DNA of 37,221 bases. Origin: a virus. Shown piece by piece: positions 15,532 to 24,745 of the stretch. The notes beneath the pieces were generated by a model. It saw only the letters and a program-made list of their open reading frames with translations, ran no database searches and had not been told where the DNA came from. Made by a program: the position numbers and the translations under genes. Position 1 is the stretch's first letter; the number at the start of each line of letters is the position of its first letter. The stretch lies in IMG/VR virus record IMGVR_UViG_3300011259_000017, positions 1 through 37,221 of that record, one strand, 5' to 3'.

Positions 15532-15586
15532 GGTGCAAACAAATTAATTTAAAATAAATATTAAATAATACTTGTATAATATAATT

Positions 15587-15645
15587 GGCGTGTATATTAT
15601 TAACTCACTGGTTAGGCAATAACGCTTACCTAAACGCCTTGGAGG
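15587..15645 (+). promoter_or_regulatory. Structured leader of cassette 4 with a motif shared with 30973-30993
   Basis: GGCGT (15587-15591) can pair with ACGCC (15634-15638) and TTAGG (15612-15616) with CCTAA (15629-15633), just before the ribosome site TTGGAGG. The loop holds GGTTAGGCAATAACGCTTA (15610-15628), nearly identical to the leader of the gene at 30955 on the other strand. Confidence 0.45.
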
Positions 15646-15650
15646 CTGCT

Positions 15651-15893
15651 ATGTTAAAACTAAAAACAACTAAATTATTTTACGCTATCAAAAAAACTGA
15701 TGATGGCTTTGCGTATACACGCTCACGCAATGATGACATTACAGAGGATAAAACAATTTATTCTAGTTCTGCGTTATGTGAAATTTCTGCATGGTCGCTT
15801 GATACGCCTAGCGCGATATTGAAAGACATGAAAGCAATCGGGCTTACTGAGTTTGACGCTTTGAAAGCTAAAATGTATATGGGTGTTCAGTAA
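15651..15893 (+). CDS. Hypothetical protein, cassette 4
   Basis: An 80-residue protein from ATG 15651, preceded by TTGGAGG 5 bases upstream. The N-terminal half has beta strands (TTKLFYAIKKTDDGFAYT), the C-terminal half helices ('DTPSAILKDMKAIGLTEFDALKAKM'). No membrane segment. It is the first gene of a two-gene cassette between scaffold and portal genes. No family recognised. Confidence 0.7.
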   Translation: MLKLKTTKLFYAIKKTDDGFAYTRSRNDDITEDKTIYSSSALCEISAWSLDTPSAILKDMKAIGLTEFDALKAKMYMGVQ

Positions 15894-17641: not shown

Positions 17642-17782
17642 ATGGAACTAATATTAAAACAATTAGTAGGTGGCGGTGTCGCGATTATATCAATCGCGTT
17701 TCTATTAAACTTAATTTATCACTACATTAAAGTGTGTAAGCAAATCAAAAAATTAAAAGGTGAACAAAATGAGCAAAGCTAG
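17642..17782 (+). CDS. Small single-pass membrane protein, cassette 5
   Basis: A 46-residue protein with one hydrophobic helix (about residues 8-27, LVGGGVAIISIAFLLNLIYH) and a Lys-rich C-terminal tail. AGGAG lies 9 bases before the ATG. It overlaps the next gene by 14 bases. It lies in the same cassette as the endolysin, so a holin-related role is possible but unproven. Confidence 0.6.
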   Translation: MELILKQLVGGGVAIISIAFLLNLIYHYIKVCKQIKKLKGEQNEQS

Positions 17783-18053
17783 AGCGGTATTTAAAGGCAA
17801 CGAGTTACAAAGTTATTCTGGCGGGTGTAGCTCATATGAGCGCGTATACACTAGAGGTGACGATATACAAAGCAACCCGCCGCAAGTTGATAAATTGATT
17901 GATATAACTGAACTACAAAACCAGCTAGCAGAAAAAGACGCGGTTATTGCTGAGTTGAAATCAATGTACGAAGGATTAGAAAACGCTAAATCAGAAGGTA
18001 ATTATTACGGACGGAGTAACACTATAATTAATTATATAGGAAATTTAAAATGA
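17769..18053 (+). CDS. Hypothetical protein, cassette 5
   Basis: A 94-residue protein from ATG 17769, chosen over GTG 17760 because AAAAGG lies 8 bases ahead. The N-terminus is basic with 'YSGGCSSYERVYTRGDD'; residues 45-75 form a coiled coil (ITELQNQLAEKDAVIAELKS). It overlaps both neighbours. No family recognised. Confidence 0.65.
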   Translation: MSKARAVFKGNELQSYSGGCSSYERVYTRGDDIQSNPPQVDKLIDITELQNQLAEKDAVIAELKSMYEGLENAKSEGNYYGRSNTIINYIGNLK

Positions 18054-18178
18054 CTAACTACGAACTACTACTAACCCACAGCGCCGCATTTTTACTAGGT
18101 GGTTTTATATGGCATTTAATACTGGTCGGATGTGTAAAACATATCAACGGTGTTATTATTGGTGATGAAGATGATTAA
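18050..18178 (+). CDS. Small membrane protein, cassette 5
   Basis: A 42-residue protein with one hydrophobic segment (AAFLLGGFIWHLILVGCV) and an acidic end (GDEDD). Start overlaps the previous stop by 4 bases. Its coding region also holds a complete box promoter (18121-18159) for the next gene, so these codons carry two functions. Confidence 0.55.
   Translation: MTNYELLLTHSAAFLLGGFIWHLILVGCVKHINGVIIGDEDD
18121..18159 (+). promoter_or_regulatory. TGGTC-box promoter inside a coding region
   Basis: ACTGGTCGGA with TGGTC at 18123 and a textbook extended -10 TGTTATTAT (hexamer 18154-18159), 31 bases downstream. Start near 18166 would place the 18165 ATG at or before the transcript start, so later in-frame ATG 18171 might be used on this transcript. 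Confidence 0.55.
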
Positions 18179-18473
18179 ACCACTATTACTATTAACACTA
18201 ATATCACCAATCGCACACGCGGCTGATATTTACCTGTACAGCAAAACATCCATTGGTTACAAGTTTGATCAATCAAATGTTATGCAGGAAGACTTTTCAT
18301 ATTATAAATCGCATCCTATAAGCTCAACTTTTGAGTTAGGTTTAAACGTTAACAAGTGGAGTTTTGGTGTTAAACATGATAGTCAGCCGTTTGATGGTTG
18401 GCCAGTAAACAACAAAGGCGAATTGCACAAAACAGAAGTGTTTATTTCGTATACTAAAAAATGGGAGTTGTGA
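18165..18473 (+). CDS. Exported beta-rich protein
   Basis: A 102-residue protein with a clear signal peptide: MKMIKPLLLLTLISPIAHA, cleavage expected after AHA. The mature part alternates polar and hydrophobic residues in strands (IYLYSKTSIGYKF, STFELGLNVNKWSFGVKH, KTEVFISYTKKWEL) and ends in an aromatic-rich strand, like outer-membrane barrel segments, though it is too short for a whole barrel. It might modify the host surface, for example in superinfection exclusion. That role is inference only. Start at 18165; GTG 18150 would add hydrophobic residues but has no ribosome site. Confidence 0.65.
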   Translation: MKMIKPLLLLTLISPIAHAADIYLYSKTSIGYKFDQSNVMQEDFSYYKSHPISSTFELGLNVNKWSFGVKHDSQPFDGWPVNNKGELHKTEVFISYTKKWEL

Positions 18474-18634
18474 TGGACAACAAAGAAGATAAAAAATATT
18501 GCAAAGAATGCGGTGGGTTTATTAAGTATGATAAAACATCAAGATTGCTTAGCTCGCCGCCAAAATACAAAGGCGTGTGCAAAGATTGCGGAAGTTTTGT
18601 TTACACCAAATGTAGTGAGGTTGAAGATGAATAA
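18473..18634 (+). CDS. Small zinc-ribbon protein
   Basis: A 53-residue protein with two CxxC knuckles, C10-C13 (YCKECGGF) and C36-C39 (VCKDCGSF), spaced as in a zinc ribbon. Ends acidic (EVEDE). Start overlaps the previous stop (TGATG) and its end overlaps the next gene by 8 bases. A nucleic-acid or protein-binding role is likely from the fold type, but the partner is unknown. Confidence 0.65.
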   Translation: MDNKEDKKYCKECGGFIKYDKTSRLLSSPPKYKGVCKDCGSFVYTKCSEVEDE

Positions 18635-18797
18635 CCTACAACCTTGGAGGCCAACTGAGCTACTACTGAGTAATGAAGAAATACAACTGAGTAGAGATAT
18701 TGCACGAGAAGACAGAATAGAAACTTTGCTGTCAATGTTAGAAATCGTGTTAATGGTCGATATTATAATAATGCAAATGGTGATTAGTAATGACTAA
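18627..18797 (+). CDS. Small protein with hydrophobic C-terminal helix
   Basis: A 56-residue protein from ATG 18627, preceded by GAGG in the upstream gene. A polar acidic half (MNNLQPWRPTELLLSNEEIQ) is followed by a very hydrophobic, Met/Ile-rich stretch (LSMLEIVLMVDIIIMQMVI), probably membrane associated. A longer reading upstream in this frame overlaps the zinc-ribbon gene and is not supported. Overlaps the next gene by 8 bases. Confidence 0.55.
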   Translation: MNNLQPWRPTELLLSNEEIQLSRDIAREDRIETLLSMLEIVLMVDIIIMQMVISND

Positions 18798-19005
18798 AAT
18801 AACAGCAGCAGAGTTATTAACTTATGCACTCAATGAAAGTGGATTAAAAACTTCTTTTGTTGCCAAGAAATACGGCGTTACAGTGCAAGCAATAAATAAG
18901 TGGAAACGTGGCGACTTCTGCCCTAAATACGATGATTTATGCGGTATTTTAGAATATTTGGGGTTTGATATGGCTGAATTGATAATAAAACTGAGGAATA
19001 AGTAA
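18790..19005 (+). CDS. XRE-like helix-turn-helix protein
   Basis: A 71-residue protein with a helix-turn-helix at about residues 20-45: 'LKTSFVAKKYGVTVQAINKWKRG', in which the second helix (TVQAINKWKRG) has the typical recognition-helix pattern. Similar one-domain proteins act as Cro-like or accessory DNA-binding regulators. It lies immediately before the endolysin gene and inside a box-driven cassette, so it is a candidate, among others, for the protein that binds the TGGTC boxes. That link is speculative. Confidence 0.75.
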   Translation: MTKITAAELLTYALNESGLKTSFVAKKYGVTVQAINKWKRGDFCPKYDDLCGILEYLGFDMAELIIKLRNK

Positions 19006-19006
19006 A

Positions 19007-19489
19007 ATGTTAGATTATAAACAATTACACGACTTTGTAGCCAAGCCGCTATTAAGTCAAATTAAAAACGGCATGAGTGGTATTGATGCGTTTATGATGT
19101 GTGTCGCTCATGAGTCAAAAGGTGGCACATATTTAAAGCAAACTCACGATGGCCCCGCAAAAGGTATCATTCAAATGGAGCCTGACACACATAATGATGT
19201 ATGGCGCAATGGTGATTCAATTTGGGATAACGCTTTAAAGTTAGGAATAATTGAACGTTGGCAATACGATATTAAAACACACCCAACATCAGACCGATTA
19301 ATATACGATTTACGTTATAATGTGTTTATGTTTCGCCAATTTATGTTTATGCAGCCTGGCGTTTTACCCGTGCGCAGTAGGGAGTTAGCGAAATATCTTA
19401 AAAAGTATTACAACACCGAAAAAGGTAAGGCTACAGCAGAAAGTTATTACTATGACCATATAAACTGGCTTAATAATGGTACTCATTAA
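19007..19489 (+). CDS. Endolysin, lysozyme/transglycosylase type
   Basis: A 160-residue protein with the lysozyme-like pattern: catalytic Glu at residue 36 in 'CVAHESKGGTYLKQ', then 'DGPAKGIIQMEPDTHND', equivalent to the Gly-Gln-Met segment of soluble lytic transglycosylase and phage lysozyme domains. No signal peptide or SAR segment is seen (the N-terminus is MLDYKQLHDFVAKPLLSQIK), so release would need a holin. Start lies one base after the HTH gene. It should cut cell-wall glycan at lysis, making this cassette late-expressed. Confidence 0.75.
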   Translation: MLDYKQLHDFVAKPLLSQIKNGMSGIDAFMMCVAHESKGGTYLKQTHDGPAKGIIQMEPDTHNDVWRNGDSIWDNALKLGIIERWQYDIKTHPTSDRLIYDLRYNVFMFRQFMFMQPGVLPVRSRELAKYLKKYYNTEKGKATAESYYYDHINWLNNGTH

Positions 19490-19595
19490 AATAATACTAA
19501 TCCCGTTATTGTTTGTTGCAATAGCGGTTTTACTTTCGCATAAAACTAAAGAAGAATATCAACAGCCGCACAGTTGTGATTGGGAGGATGAATGA
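19476..19595 (+). CDS. Small N-anchored membrane protein after the endolysin
   Basis: A 39-residue protein with an N-terminal hydrophobic helix (LIKIILIPLLFVAIAVLL) followed by a polar tail (SHKTKEEYQQPHSCDWEDE). It overlaps the end of the endolysin gene by 14 bases and the next gene by 4 (ATGA). Position next to the endolysin fits a holin, antiholin or spanin-like accessory, but it is too short for a normal i-spanin. Assignment open. Confidence 0.6.
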   Translation: MVLIKIILIPLLFVAIAVLLSHKTKEEYQQPHSCDWEDE

Positions 19596-19822
19596 ACAAA
19601 GCACTAAAAAGATTTAAGCGTGTTAAGTGGATTGATACTGAGTTAGCCAGAAAGTACAAATTTAGGCGAGCATTAAACCACGCGCATGTGCTAGCAATAA
19701 AATCTATGGCTCAACTAAAAATTGACACAATAAGAAACTCAAATGATAATTTATTTGAAAAACAACTTGCAGTTAATGTGGTTAGAAGAGACGCTCGTGA
19801 GGCAATAAGCAAACTGGTCTAA
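19592..19822 (+). CDS. Small basic protein, cassette 5
   Basis: A 76-residue, strongly basic, helical protein (MNKALKRFKRVKWIDTELAR start), coupled to the previous gene by ATGA with GGGAGG as ribosome site. The positive charge suggests nucleic-acid binding, but no domain is recognised. Its last codons contain a complete TGGTC box for the next gene. Confidence 0.65.
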   Translation: MNKALKRFKRVKWIDTELARKYKFRRALNHAHVLAIKSMAQLKIDTIRNSNDNLFEKQLAVNVVRRDAREAISKLV

Positions 19823-19851
19823 TCTGTTTAGGTTGGTTGTTGTGGTATTGT
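19812..19851 (+). promoter_or_regulatory. TGGTC-box promoter before the 19886 gene
   Basis: AACTGGTCTAATC with TGGTC at 19815; extended -10 TGGTATTGT with its hexamer at 19846-19851, 31 bases downstream. Confidence 0.6.
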
Positions 19852-19885
19852 GGGTTTTTAATTAACTTAAAGAGTGAGAGAGATT

Positions 19886-20224
19886 ATGTGTGATGCAGAA
19901 GAGCCGAAGTGCTTTCAAGTGATAACAAGAAAGGCACGAAAAGAACACAAATGCTGCGAGTGCAGAAAAATAATAAGCAAGGGTGAGTCATATCAGTATT
20001 GTAGTGGCATATGGGACGACCCCCAATCATACAAAACGTGCTCGTCATGCGTTGAAGTAAGAGATAATTATGACAATACCAATTCATGCATACCACCATT
20101 TGGAAGCTTAAGTGAATATGTGCAAGAGCAGTTTTATACAGGGTTTGGTGTTAATGAGCTAATTAAGTTAAACCCACAGTTAGAGAGTAATGTTAAAAAA
20201 TTACTTGGAAAAGCCGCTAATTAA
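19886..20224 (+). CDS. Cys-rich putative zinc-binding protein
   Basis: A 112-residue protein from ATG 19886, preceded by GAGAGAG; GTG 19874 is less likely. Residues about 23-60 hold 'HKCCECRKIISKGESY' and 'KTCSSCVEVRD', two CxxC pairs flanking a strand, a zinc-ribbon-like arrangement. The first ten residues also contain two Cys. The C-terminal third is helical. Its own box promoter and a following terminator make it a one-gene unit within cassette 5. Function unknown. Confidence 0.7.
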   Translation: MCDAEEPKCFQVITRKARKEHKCCECRKIISKGESYQYCSGIWDDPQSYKTCSSCVEVRDNYDNTNSCIPPFGSLSEYVQEQFYTGFGVNELIKLNPQLESNVKKLLGKAAN

Positions 20225-20253: not shown

Positions 20254-20997
20254 CTATTTAGATCTATTATCATCAAAAATATTTAACAAATATTGTGTTG
20301 GATTTTCTTTCCTCCACTTCCAATCAGCAGCTGTATGACATGCCTTGCAAAGCGCCTCAAGGTTTGACTGCTTATTAGCTTGTGTTTTATTTTTATGTTG
20401 ATGGAATGGTATTATGTGATTAACATCTAACTTTCTTCCGTTTTCTTCTTCTGTCTTTCCACATATTTTACAAACTCGCCCGTGTAAATCTCTGCATTTC
20501 TCAGCAATCTTTAACCAACCTGCACCCCTTCCGCCACTTCTAGAGCTGCCGCCTTTCCAGTTAGGATGATTTTCTTTGTGGTGAGCTGTCTTTAACTTCC
20601 TTTCCTCATCTGTTTTCATTAGATATGAAACACACTCTGATGAGCAAGTTTTTCTGGACTTATCTTTTATGTATCTATTCTCTCCTGCCATATAAGAAAT
20701 CGCACTAAACTCAACTCCACAAGCTTTACATTTTTTGCGGCACAATCTTGAGAAATACTCATTTTTACACGTTTGAGAGCAGTATTTTCTTGTTTTCGCC
20801 TTTCCTGTTATAGCAATATGATTGCCGCACCCGGCGCAATCAAAACCGTTAGCTTTCCAAATGTCACGCCTAAATTTATCGTAGCAATCCCTAGAGCAAA
20901 ATATGTTTTTGCACCTGTCGCCACTTCTATTTTTTACAGGTGTTCTATTAACTCTATTGCCACATTCTTTACAATGATGTATATTTGATTTGCACAT
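20254..20997 (-). CDS. HNH homing-type endonuclease with zinc fingers
   Basis: A 247-residue protein from ATG 20997 (GGAG 7 bases upstream); a longer reading to 21057 is unlikely. The N-terminal half has several CxxC knuckles (HCKECGNRV, CAGCGNHI, CKACGVEF) for DNA binding. Then 'KENHPNWKGGSSRSGGRG', a motif typical of phage HNH homing enzymes. The C-terminal HNH domain has 'VCKICGKT', 'KLDVNHIIPFHQHK', 'NLEALCKACHTAADW', with His-Asn-His catalytic residues and four zinc Cys. Free-standing between the gp7-like and portal genes, it is probably a mobile insertion that cuts related phages. Confidence 0.85.
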   Translation of the reverse strand: MCKSNIHHCKECGNRVNRTPVKNRSGDRCKNIFCSRDCYDKFRRDIWKANGFDCAGCGNHIAITGKAKTRKYCSQTCKNEYFSRLCRKKCKACGVEFSAISYMAGENRYIKDKSRKTCSSECVSYLMKTDEERKLKTAHHKENHPNWKGGSSRSGGRGAGWLKIAEKCRDLHGRVCKICGKTEEENGRKLDVNHIIPFHQHKNKTQANKQSNLEALCKACHTAADWKWRKENPTQYLLNIFDDNRSK

Positions 20998-21071
20998 TTC
21001 GTTACTCCAATAACGTTTGTGAAGTGAGGTGAGGGAGCGCCAACTCCCTTGTTTCATGCTTTATTATACGA

Positions 21072-22205
21072 TCATAGGCCTGCCATATCAAATGCCTTTT
21101 TGTCCAGAATCTTCAACTCATCTAGAGTGAGTATTCTATTACTCATATCTGTGAATTGACTTAACTTTAAATTCCCTTTTACCAATAACTCAGCTCTAGC
21201 TTTACCAAGAGTCGACTCTATAAACCACATAGGTTGCTCTTCAAGCCAAACTTCATGGCTTTTTTTTGCAGAGACTTGACCCGGCTTAAATATGTCAGTG
21301 TCTTTTTTGCCTCTATAACCAACCTTTGATTTAACTCTTAACCTTTCTTTTCGCTCATCGTACAACTCCCTAGCTTCCGCACCTTTAACACCACCAACCG
21401 CCGATTGTGTTCCAGTTAACTGAGCGCCTTTTACAACTGAAAGCATAGTCGAACGGCAGTTGAAATGATTTGGAGGCCAAGGTATATTTTTTGCCGTAAC
21501 AGACCATCTTTTGCCAGATAAACCCAAACATATTAAGCTTGTTTTATTATCCCAAACAGAAAGATAAACCAATTCATTTAATATATCCTTATTGTCTTCA
21601 ACCATAGCCTTTTTAGCCTGATTAGCATAATGAATATAACCAGTGCGCGCTAATGTTTCAGCCTCACGCGCAATAATTCCACCAACAACATTCTTAACCG
21701 ACTTCTTAATCTGGCTAATAGATTGACCAGAATTAAATCCAGTACGTACAGCAGAATTAATATAACGCTTACGTGAATCAACATTAGTCGTCGTGTAATC
21801 ACCCCACGGCGCAACTGAGACGTTTTGGCCGCTCGTTAACTCCATCATTGCGGTTTTCATGTAGCGTTGAATGTCATCACTATCAGGCACAGTTATAGCC
21901 GCAACACCCGCAGCAGTTTGATACGCTGCTTGCCATTGAGCCTCATAATCAGCAAGTGGGTTTAAATAATCAGTTGTTAATTCAGTCCAACCGTTATTAT
22001 CTTCAATCGCCTTATTGATAGCTCGAACAATACGATTTAATTGTGCTTGAGTAGGATTTTCGTCGAACTCATTTAATATGCGCGCAATTGATTTGTATGT
22101 TGCATCTAATGACGGCTTTACAACTGAGTTAATGCCACCACTAGCAAGTCTTTCGATATACTGTTGGTGGCGTAGTTGTTCGTCTATGTCGTATTTAATT
22201 GGCAT
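21072..22205 (-). CDS. Minor head protein, SPP1 gp7 / Mu F-like
   Basis: A 377-residue protein. The C-terminal half has the head-morphogenesis domain: 'RYINSAVRTGFNSGQSISQIKK', 'REAETLARTGYIHYANQ', then 'VWDNKTSLICLGLSGKRW' and 'PWPPNHFNCRSTMLSVV', the Asp-Thr-Ser...Cys...His-Cys-Arg signature of Mu F/SPP1 gp7-like proteins. The N-terminal half is helical. These proteins bind the portal and enter the head in few copies; they affect DNA delivery. It lies upstream of the portal gene, reversing the common order. Confidence 0.8.
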   Translation of the reverse strand: MPIKYDIDEQLRHQQYIERLASGGINSVVKPSLDATYKSIARILNEFDENPTQAQLNRIVRAINKAIEDNNGWTELTTDYLNPLADYEAQWQAAYQTAAGVAAITVPDSDDIQRYMKTAMMELTSGQNVSVAPWGDYTTTNVDSRKRYINSAVRTGFNSGQSISQIKKSVKNVVGGIIAREAETLARTGYIHYANQAKKAMVEDNKDILNELVYLSVWDNKTSLICLGLSGKRWSVTAKNIPWPPNHFNCRSTMLSVVKGAQLTGTQSAVGGVKGAEARELYDERKERLRVKSKVGYRGKKDTDIFKPGQVSAKKSHEVWLEEQPMWFIESTLGKARAELLVKGNLKLSQFTDMSNRILTLDELKILDKKAFDMAGL

Positions 22206-22221: not shown

Positions 22222-22359
22222 TTATGGTTGGTCATTATCAACAAACCCTTTTATGTGGCCAGTAACCATTAAGTTACTAATTAAATGCTTAGTTCTAACC
22301 TGTTTCGGCAATACTTTTTCACCTAAATTAATAATCTTTACAGCCCAAAACTCTCTCAT
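22222..22359 (-). CDS. Small hypothetical protein of the head module
   Basis: A 45-residue protein, MREFWAVKIINLGEKVLPKQ then 'VRTKHLISNLMVTGHIKGFVDNDQP', 8 bases after the HslV-like gene and before the gp7-like gene, all leftward. No clear ribosome site or family. A plus-strand reading of the same region has no promoter or ribosome site and is judged a shadow. Confidence 0.5.
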   Translation of the reverse strand: MREFWAVKIINLGEKVLPKQVRTKHLISNLMVTGHIKGFVDNDQP

Positions 22360-22367
22360 TAGATATT

Positions 22368-22829
22368 TCACACGTCACCGCCTGTAATAAACTCCATACT
22401 TTCAACATCAAAAACAGAAATATCACCACCTGTGCCAACGTCCATTGTAGCAGCAAACTCAGCAGCACTAAACGCAGATTTACCTAACTTCATAACAGAC
22501 AACGCATAAGGAGCACCCGAGCCGATAGCCTCGTTAAATGTTAACTCAATTTCAAAATAACCCGTTTCATTATCAACGCCAGAACAATAAGCGACACCAT
22601 CAATAACAAAAATACAAGTTACAGCAGGTACAAAATCAGGTTTAAATCCTATTAACTTATCCATATCTAAAAACGGTTTTATGTCAGCAATATCACCGGC
22701 AAAGAAATAATAAACGCCATCTTTTTCATGCCACTTTTTAAACGATGTGGATTTAATCTCATTGCCCGCCGTCATTAATCCATCACATGCGATTTGTTTA
22801 GTTTCATGGTTGTATACGATTGTAGTCAT
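22368..22829 (-). CDS. HslV/proteasome-like Ntn hydrolase
   Basis: A 153-residue protein starting MTTIV at ATG 22829, better placed after GGATGA than ATG 22835. Removing Met would expose Thr1, the nucleophile of HslV and proteasome beta subunits. Counting from that Thr, Asp15 (IACDGLMTAGN) and Lys31 (STSFKKW) keep the spacing of Asp17 and Lys33 in bacterial HslV with a two-residue loop deletion. 'EAIGSGAPYALSVM' matches the HslV 'AIGSGGPYA' loop. It is slightly shorter than HslV (about 175). No HslU-like ATPase is seen. It lies between terminase and head genes, so a head maturation protease or a host-directed peptidase are both possible. Confidence 0.8.
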   Translation of the reverse strand: MTTIVYNHETKQIACDGLMTAGNEIKSTSFKKWHEKDGVYYFFAGDIADIKPFLDMDKLIGFKPDFVPAVTCIFVIDGVAYCSGVDNETGYFEIELTFNEAIGSGAPYALSVMKLGKSAFSAAEFAATMDVGTGGDISVFDVESMEFITGGDV

Positions 22830-22861
22830 TTTCATTCATCCGTTTAGTTCATCCGATAACC

Positions 22862-23158: not shown

Positions 23159-23428
23159 ATGAGCTTAATAACAGATGTAAAAAACTTAACGCCGTTATGG
23201 GTTGTTATTTGCAGAAATAGCAGTGAACAAGCCTACGTATTAAATTGGTGTAAAGTTAATGAAAAATCAGTTTCTAACTGGATGGTTGGTAATAATAAAT
23301 TCCCAATGTGCTACGACATTAGAGAAGGTGTTGCTGGTTGGACTGACTTACTTGATCGCGCAATGAGTTATATTGATTTTATAACATTTTATAACAACGA
23401 AAGTTACATACAGGAGCAAACAAAATGA
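23159..23428 (+). CDS. Hypothetical protein, cassette 6
   Basis: An 89-residue protein with a good ribosome site (GAGGAG). Aromatic-rich (LTPLWVVICRNSSEQAYVLN, 'GVAGWTDLLDRAMSYIDF'), with no membrane segment or known motif. The end overlaps the next start by 4 bases (ATGA), so the two are coupled. Confidence 0.7.
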   Translation: MSLITDVKNLTPLWVVICRNSSEQAYVLNWCKVNEKSVSNWMVGNNKFPMCYDIREGVAGWTDLLDRAMSYIDFITFYNNESYIQEQTK

Positions 23429-23703
23429 ACAATGAAACACATGAAGATAGAGTGAAGATTTTAGAGGGTGCGCCTGATGGTGCGACTCATGTTAGCAATG
23501 AAGATTTTGAATTATACTACAAGGAAGACGGGAGTTATTATGCTACCCATAAAGGGAGATGGTCTAGAATTTCCGCGTTGCTTGGTTCTGTTAGCTCACT
23601 AGCAGACATACAAAAACTAGTTGATATGCAAAATGAGATTGATGCGTTGAGCAAGCAGGTTGAGGTTTTGCACAACACTTATTCTATTGGAGGGTTTGAT
23701 TAA
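23425..23703 (+). CDS. Hypothetical protein, cassette 6
   Basis: A 92-residue protein. The first half has the 'LEGAPDGATHVSNEDFELYYK...W' pattern often seen in small phage proteins beginning with an acidic strand and a Trp; the second half is a coiled coil (IQKLVDMQNEIDALSKQVEV). Coupled by ATGA to the previous gene and followed by another box promoter. Confidence 0.7.
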   Translation: MNNETHEDRVKILEGAPDGATHVSNEDFELYYKEDGSYYATHKGRWSRISALLGSVSSLADIQKLVDMQNEIDALSKQVEVLHNTYSIGGFD

Positions 23704-23709
23704 TATATA

Positions 23710-23748
23710 ACTGTTCGGAGTTGTTAGCAGCCAGTTTTGTGATATAAA
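23710..23748 (+). promoter_or_regulatory. Variant TGTTC-box promoter
   Basis: AACTGTTCGGA with TGTTC at 23712 (one change from the consensus) and -10 TATAAA at 23743-23748, exactly 31 bases on. Drives the last five genes of cassette 6. Confidence 0.5.
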
Positions 23749-23778
23749 TAGATTTAGTTAATTAGGAGAAACAAACAA

Positions 23779-23919
23779 ATGACTGAACAAGAATTTTACA
23801 GCTTATATAAGAAATCGGAAACGGTAGAAACTAGAGCTAAAAACGCGAAAATTGCACGAGATAAAATTGAAGAATTAAAAGATAAACGCGAAATTGAGAA
23901 GGCGAATGATTATGAGTGA
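23779..23919 (+). CDS. Small coiled-coil protein, cassette 6
   Basis: A 46-residue Lys/Glu-rich helix (MTEQEFYSLYKKSETVETRA, then 'KIARDKIEELKDKREIEKAND'), AGGAG 11 bases upstream. It overlaps the next gene by 8 bases. No family recognised. Confidence 0.6.
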   Translation: MTEQEFYSLYKKSETVETRAKNAKIARDKIEELKDKREIEKANDYE

Positions 23920-24202
23920 TTTAAATAGATTCACTGGTGGTGACTGGAAATTAACACGATATGGTTATGAGAAATATTCAATAAATGGCGAGAACGGCGA
24001 GGAAGTTTGCTTCACGCACAGCCAATTTAATGGGCTAGTGCTTGCACAAGCTAAGAATATGTATGAAATTCTTAACCAAATAAATAACTTTATAGCAGAT
24101 TCCAAAAATGAAATTGACCTTGCTGATTTAGTTTGTGGCATTGCTCACGATATTGATAATTTACTAAACGCATGTAAACCACCGGAGAAAGATAATGATT
24201 AA
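23912..24202 (+). CDS. Hypothetical protein, cassette 6
   Basis: A 96-residue protein from ATG 23912, about 10 bases after AAGG; two upstream in-frame starts are too close to it or lack a site. N-terminal beta strands (RFTGGDWKLTRYGYEKYSIN, 'EEVCFTHSQFNG') and a helical second half with 'DLADLVCGIAHDIDNLLNAC'. No known motif. Overlaps the next gene by 8 bases. Confidence 0.65.
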   Translation: MSDLNRFTGGDWKLTRYGYEKYSINGENGEEVCFTHSQFNGLVLAQAKNMYEILNQINNFIADSKNEIDLADLVCGIAHDIDNLLNACKPPEKDND

Positions 24203-24395
24203 CCTAACACTCGCATTTATAATATTTTTTATATCGTCGTTATCATTAACGCATTACAAGAAACTTGCATCATTAGAAGAAGCACATCCAGTTGGTTATG
24301 CGATATTCGGATTAGTGATAATAATTGCCTTACTTGTTTCTACTGCGCTAATGCTTACTTATTTTTTCTTATTAATGATTGGAGTTAATGCATGA
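24195..24395 (+). CDS. Two-pass membrane protein, holin candidate
   Basis: A 66-residue protein with two hydrophobic helices, residues 3-19 (NLTLAFIIFFISSLSLT) and about 33-62 (VGYAIFGLVIIIALLVSTAL onward), separated by a charged turn (HYKKLASLEEAH). Size and topology fit a class II holin, but it is in a different cassette from the endolysin and has no basic tail. Overlaps both neighbours by 4-8 bases. Confidence 0.6.
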   Translation: MINLTLAFIIFFISSLSLTHYKKLASLEEAHPVGYAIFGLVIIIALLVSTALMLTYFFLLMIGVNA

Positions 24396-24745
24396 TTATT
24401 CAAATAAAAGTTACTGAGCAAATGATTAAAGCCTGTAAGTCGTGGGTTAATGATGTTCAAACTTATAGACTTAAATCATTGAAACGAGTTACAACAACCG
24501 AACTAACTGGTTACTTCTGGTGGAGGAAAGAAATTGAGGTTGAATCTTATGTGTATAACCAAGATTTAAAAATTCCACCGTTATGCAGACTTATTGATAT
24601 GCATTACAACATACTGCCAATTCTACACGAGCCTGAAACTGAGTATACAATACATACAATATCAAAATTAAAATCACCGCAAGTTATACTACTAGATACA
24701 CGAGAGTTTAACGATATTAACGAACTTATGGAGTATTACAAATGA
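24392..24745 (+). CDS. Hypothetical protein, cassette 6
   Basis: A 117-residue soluble protein. Starts MIIQIKVTEQMIKACKSWVN; the middle has 'LTGYFWWRKEIEVESYVYNQ' strands and the end 'VILLDTREFNDINELMEYYK'. Coupled by ATGA overlaps on both sides. No known motif. Confidence 0.7.
   Translation: MIIQIKVTEQMIKACKSWVNDVQTYRLKSLKRVTTTELTGYFWWRKEIEVESYVYNQDLKIPPLCRLIDMHYNILPILHEPETEYTIHTISKLKSPQVILLDTREFNDINELMEYYK

Follow-up and report, generated by a model that had tools for sequence, protein, structure and literature searches.

The window analysed here, a viral contig of 37,221 bases from IMG/VR (IMGVR_UViG_3300011259_000017) that is possibly an incomplete genome, carries a gene that appears to belong to the PPH family, known from phages since 2021 and presented as the first truly viral branch among proteasome-like proteins (PMC8665760). 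Taken jointly, our reading is that the product is a catalytically competent Thr1 hydrolase, encoded as an accessory of the late region, probably acting without an ATPase and not needed for head assembly; we put the probability of this combined reading at roughly 0.6. If active, PPH would represent a proteasome-type enzyme in naturally minimal form. The analysis also weakens two earlier guesses, namely that the protein is a prohead protease or a partner of host HslU, and it names phages and neighbouring genes with which its function can be tested.

The open reading frame spans 22835..22368 on the minus strand—the preliminary description had given no strand—and encodes 153 aa from the MTTIV at 22829, whereas the plus strand of 22368-22829 contains several stops. 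MTTIV is likely the start that is used, because homologues begin at MTTI and because the spacing of a weak ribosome-site match, GGA, suits the second ATG (22829), which it precedes by 9 nt, rather than the first, which it precedes by only 3 nt. The MTTI is common to all 14 aligned homologues and is the annotated start in 13 of them, the exception (L014) being annotated from an earlier position. With this start, Thr1 would be freed by ordinary Met removal. Promoter matches near the gene are at chance level (20 found vs 17.1 expected). A chance open reading frame or a frameshift artefact was considered as well and is ruled out by the intact frame, the conserved residues and the existence of 77 homologues.

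Table 1. Features of the PPH gene and its downstream neighbours. Positions are those of the window; residues are counted from Thr1, and conservation refers to 77 homologues.
Feature	Position	Strand	Evidence or remark
PPH-family Ntn hydrolase (putative)	22368..22829	-	stop codon after 153 codons counted from MTTIV; loss of Met would expose Thr1
Alternative upstream start, ATG AAA, giving MK-MTTIV	22830..22835	-	judged unused; homologues begin at MTTI
Catalytic Thr1 codon	22824..22826	-	model residue 2 lies on Thr1 of HslV/proteasome chains; T in 77/77
Asp15 codon (Asp17 equivalent)	22782..22784	-	D in 75/77, E in 2/77
Lys31 codon (Lys33 equivalent)	22734..22736	-	77/77
AIGSGAP motif with Ser103 (HslV Ser124, proteasome Ser129)	22509..22529	-	74 S, 2 T and 1 C of 77
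D-x-x-T-G-G motif with Asp129 and Thr132 (proteasome Asp166, Ser169)	22425..22442	-	D in 76/77; 51 T and 26 S (77/77)
45-aa ORF between PPH and the MuF-like gene	22222..22359	-	no PHROG match for 42 of its residues
MuF-like minor head/head morphogenesis gene, downstream, recurrent neighbour	21072..22205	-	phrog_241, E 2e-76; Phage_Mu_F

The assignment to PPH relies on the published marks of the family (cluster KEGG OC.1434257, WP_042125023.1), beside which the protein was set. Like the published members, it combines an Ntn core bearing Thr1 and the Asp17- and Lys33-type residues with the loss of H2, the latter of the two helices in the first pair, and it has no propeptide, the Met standing directly before Thr1 at the predicted start; at 153 residues it is close to the ~140 of the description, and the family occurs among phage genes in tailed phages and prophages. 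Judged by these marks, the window gene fits the known PPH family, which would correspond at least partly to PHROG 1040 ('peptidase HslV family'), matched by the window protein with an E value of 5e-27. It differs from the other members in that some conserved noncatalytic residues are replaced and that the closest member found is at most 45% identical. PPH homologues were located in 105-106 phage records; they are 136-165 aa long (median 148) and nearly all begin with MTTI. A scan of viral contigs with the single protein returned no match, and the most diverse alignment gave no usable pattern for scanning contigs, whereas a closer alignment did; in bacterial genomes, the scan found one locus only.

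Within the wider superfamily, to which BPH, AAH, Anbu and connectase also belong, the missing H2 sets PPH and RPC apart from BPH and Anbu, while connectase is without either helix of the first pair and carries a large insertion; AAH, too, is present in phages (PMC8665760). Profile searches place the family nearer to the proteasome than to HslV. The best NCBIfam matches of the window protein are HslV models, yet it falls far under their cut-offs (NF003964, 19.6 vs 137; TIGR03692, 17.1 vs 157.75), and it likewise stays below that of the Pfam Proteasome model (13.9 vs 22.4 bits), which 22 of 60 homologues match with E values up to 0.01. The archaeal proteasome beta model is matched by 39 of 60 family members, as against 14 for HslV, and the family profile finds its closest solved structures in proteasome beta5-type chains (E 7e-12). 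Calling the protein 'HslV-like' was thus right insofar as it is a proteasome/HslV-type Ntn hydrolase, but the label is too narrow for a protein that fails the HslV models and fits PPH. In the literature searched, no functional study of any PPH, be it of activity, oligomer or substrate, was found; one genome report on a Salmonella jumbo phage lists an HslV without HslU (PMC7823757).

The predicted structure agrees with this placement. AlphaFold2, supplied with 60 sequences comprising the window protein and IMG/VR relatives, returned a confident model (pLDDT 96.2, pTM 0.90), and a structural search with it, of the kind that the preliminary description had proposed against HslV, recovered the proteasome/HslV Ntn fold: 20S proteasome beta subunits (Z up to 16.9) and HslV (Z 16.2-16.6) are tied at Z 16-17 with an rmsd of ~2.5 over 137-148 residues, and BPH is among the matches. 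Helices are confined to residues 47-55, 106-114 and 119-129, with a loop at 56-69, so that H2 is absent from the model. The features first noticed in the sequence, i.e. MTTIV, AIGSGAPYA and, in numbering from Thr1, Asp15 and Lys31, are all present. Their supposedly constant two-residue offset to HslV holds up to Lys31 (mature residue 11 aligns with HslV 13) and has grown to 21 at AIGSG (99 aligns with 120), a jump between Lys31 and the GSG motif that is due to the missing H2. Despite the common fold, Thr1, Asp and Lys positions and GSG motif, PPH departs from HslV (ClpQ) by its lack of H2, and it departs from 20S proteasome beta subunits as well, being ~40-50 residues shorter and having no alpha subunit, no propeptide, no H2 and no C-terminal helix.

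Conservation of the active site argues for activity. The catalytic set of Thr1, Asp15, Lys31, Ser103, Asp129 and Thr132 is intact in the window copy, and each position is invariant or nearly so among the 77 homologues (Table 1), although the agreement at Thr1 and Asp15 in this alignment (A4) arises partly by selection, the patterns used for scanning contigs having included MTTI[AV]Y and the Asp15 region. The same conservation of Thr1 and Asp15 is seen in a pattern-free alignment of tblastn hits (A1), and the catalytic residues are near-invariant in the 14 aligned homologues from phage records, which were collected without sequence patterns. These residues suggest that the PPH of the window is very probably active as a Thr1 Ntn hydrolase. 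In the mechanism that we propose, host methionine aminopeptidase would strip the Met and free Thr1, whose hydroxyl would attack the amide bond with the help of Lys31, Asp15, Ser103, Asp129 and Thr132, Gly44 forming part of the oxyanion hole. Since H2 is missing and the phage brings no HslU of its own, PPH probably acts independently of an ATPase, on substrates of phage or host origin that may be small, unfolded or specific.

The gene lies within the late/head gene region, as had been noted from the start, and immediate neighbours across the family are enriched for MuF and connector genes: downstream, MuF in 10 of 59 cases and the head-closure gene Hc1 in seven of 59; upstream, the adaptor gene Ad1 in nine of 60. 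The order TerL-PPH-MuF-portal-scaffold-capsid is moreover common to several contigs. If the real job of an active Ntn hydrolase were an optional processing of virion or connector, or quality control at portal and neck, these preferred slots would be accounted for, but we regard this role as unlikely. Its narrower form, a virus-encoded minimal proteasome-type protease that lacks H2, works without an ATPase and is devoted to optional processing or quality control at the portal/connector of tailed-phage heads, is likewise unlikely; if true, it would explain why the gene has come to lie next to MuF, Ad1 and Hc1 several times independently.

The position of the gene varies, however. Among the 39 of 77 rows that could be assigned a slot (38 are unplaced), 12 including the window lie directly upstream of MuF, six at the neck, six before the terminase, six next to replication genes and nine elsewhere in the head region. 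On the PPH tree, which is built on few columns, slot labels change 35 times as compared with 36.6 for shuffled labels, which gives no sign that slot and protein are inherited together. Other family members have NinG, replication or lysis genes as neighbours, and in the closest capsid relative with PPH (84% identity) the gene is found in the segment running up to the tape-measure gene instead of between TerL and MuF. PPH is an optional extra with a changing gene position. The preference for head and connector slots could point to a genuine, if optional, part in virion assembly; insertion hot-spots in late operons and a real optional connector role fit it equally well.

Between 13691 and 26913 on the minus strand, the genes follow the unusual order TerS-TerL-PPH-MuF-HNH-portal-scaffold-capsid, with MuF before the portal, an order shared wholly or in part with four contigs (L024, L026, L034 and L043). 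A free-standing HNH endonuclease gene (20254-21057, minus strand) directly follows MuF; HNH genes near PPH also occur in Vibrio phages 2.095.A and K44 and in L024. Islands of small open reading frames on the plus strand, mostly of no known family, interrupt the minus-strand late genes between TerL and PPH (23159-24745), HNH and portal (17760-20224) and portal and scaffold (15585-15893). One open reading frame of 160 aa at 19007-19489 on the plus strand, opposite to the late genes, matches PHROG 3108, whose function is not annotated. In Vibrio phage 1.197.A, PPH is followed immediately by a MuF homologue of unusual length (L007:4560-6629), in which an intein splicing region is annotated and whose MuF match is split in two pieces.

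The preliminary description had raised a role as head maturation protease. As the prohead protease of the phage, PPH would cleave capsid or scaffold proteins within the prohead. With known prohead proteases (S78, ClpP-type and phiKZ-type, e.g. SPN3US gp245), PPH shares the presence of a protease-type gene within head regions, in its case beside MuF, portal and connector genes, and indeed neither an S78 nor a ClpP-type protease was found in the window record or in 48 PPH-bearing records, in line with the early remark that no other prohead protease is seen. These proteases belong to unrelated families, and the comparison with capsid relatives makes the proposal improbable. Among 16 records whose capsid protein is a close homologue (60-100% identity), one contains PPH, most of these records being fragments. 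A 41-kb contig with a capsid protein 76% identical to that of the window covers the genes from TerL to the major tail protein and has no PPH, and in L111 (capsid identity 81%) TerL is directly followed by MuF with no PPH between them. PPH is also missing from eight of 10 reference phages whose capsid protein is homologous, including Jerseyvirus LSPA1, while Jerseyvirus 5sent1 has it; phages with this capsid and scaffold system often do without PPH.

Because capsid relatives without PPH are also without S78, which was not found in any of the searched reference phages with a homologous capsid, the missing second protease is not read as a substitution by PPH; it is probably explained by a capsid type that has a separate scaffold gene and needs neither protease. 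The capsid protein of the window matches its family over the full length with no evident prodomain, and the scaffold is encoded by a separate gene. Elsewhere, PPH coexists with dedicated proteases: SPN3US encodes PPH as gp001 and, as a distinct and essential prohead protease, gp245 (PMC10052503), and in Microbacterium phage LeeroyJenkins gene 16 encodes a PHROG 1040 protein (E 6.8e-31) and gene 25 a separate head maturation protease (PHROG 15531). Finally, Jersey-like phages and Shewanella phage 3/49 carry the gene away from their head module; in phage 3/49 it is found among replication/NinG genes even though the capsid protein is homologous to that of the window.

The other early suggestion, a peptidase that uses host HslU, would make PPH a phage stand-in for host HslV that docks on the host ATPase and redirects ATP-dependent proteolysis. 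The shared fold and the HslV models as best NCBIfam matches speak in its favour. Many known hosts, among them Salmonella, Vibrio, E. coli and Pseudomonas, are expected to have HslUV. Against it stand the HslV scores, far under the cut-offs, and the residues of the docking site. In HslV, the pocket for the HslU tail is formed by Phe54, Phe57, Gln114 and Ala79 (PMC6429459). Aligned to HslV, the window protein has Lys in place of Phe54 (the family mostly Asp/Glu) and Leu in place of Phe57 (the family mostly Ile), and Ala79 is lost together with H2; the comparison rests on these three positions, the alignment at Gln114 being without confidence. Furthermore, a PHROG 1040 protein is present in a Microbacterium phage, although Table 1 of PMC8665760 lists no HslV for Actinobacteria. 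As first observed, no HslU partner is visible in the window record, nor was one found in the 48 PPH-bearing records. A partnership with host HslU is therefore weakly supported, and we consider it improbable.

That the protein is instead a catalytically dead structural or scaffold protein reusing the Ntn fold, the 'modified inactive scaffold' of the preliminary description, is very improbable: the window copy has lost some residues that the family conserves (R18L, D114K and R129M, counted from the initiator Met), but its six catalytic positions are intact and near-invariant in the family, and the change at 114/129 is a correlated swap found in several other members. In the 77 homologues, these two positions covary without exception, Asp114 being paired with Arg or Lys at 129 in 68 sequences and a residue other than Asp with one other than Arg/Lys in the remaining nine (Fisher p 6e-12, a statistic that ignores phylogeny). 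The minority state Lys114/Met129 of the window is shared with a Vibrio-phage clade, the Jersey-like phage 5sent1, SPN3US and others. Such covariation suggests a maintained contact, which may join H3 to the end of H4 or lie between subunits.

For the catalytically competent enzyme that we favour, assembly through H3 and H4 is plausible, because both helices rank with the best conserved elements of the family and form the ring-to-ring contact in proteasomes (PMC8665760); PPH would probably self-assemble through them into a ring or a smaller assembly. Across the family, sequence entropy is 1.60 in H3 and 1.26 in H4, compared with 2.55 in H1 and 2.95 in the loop that replaces H2.
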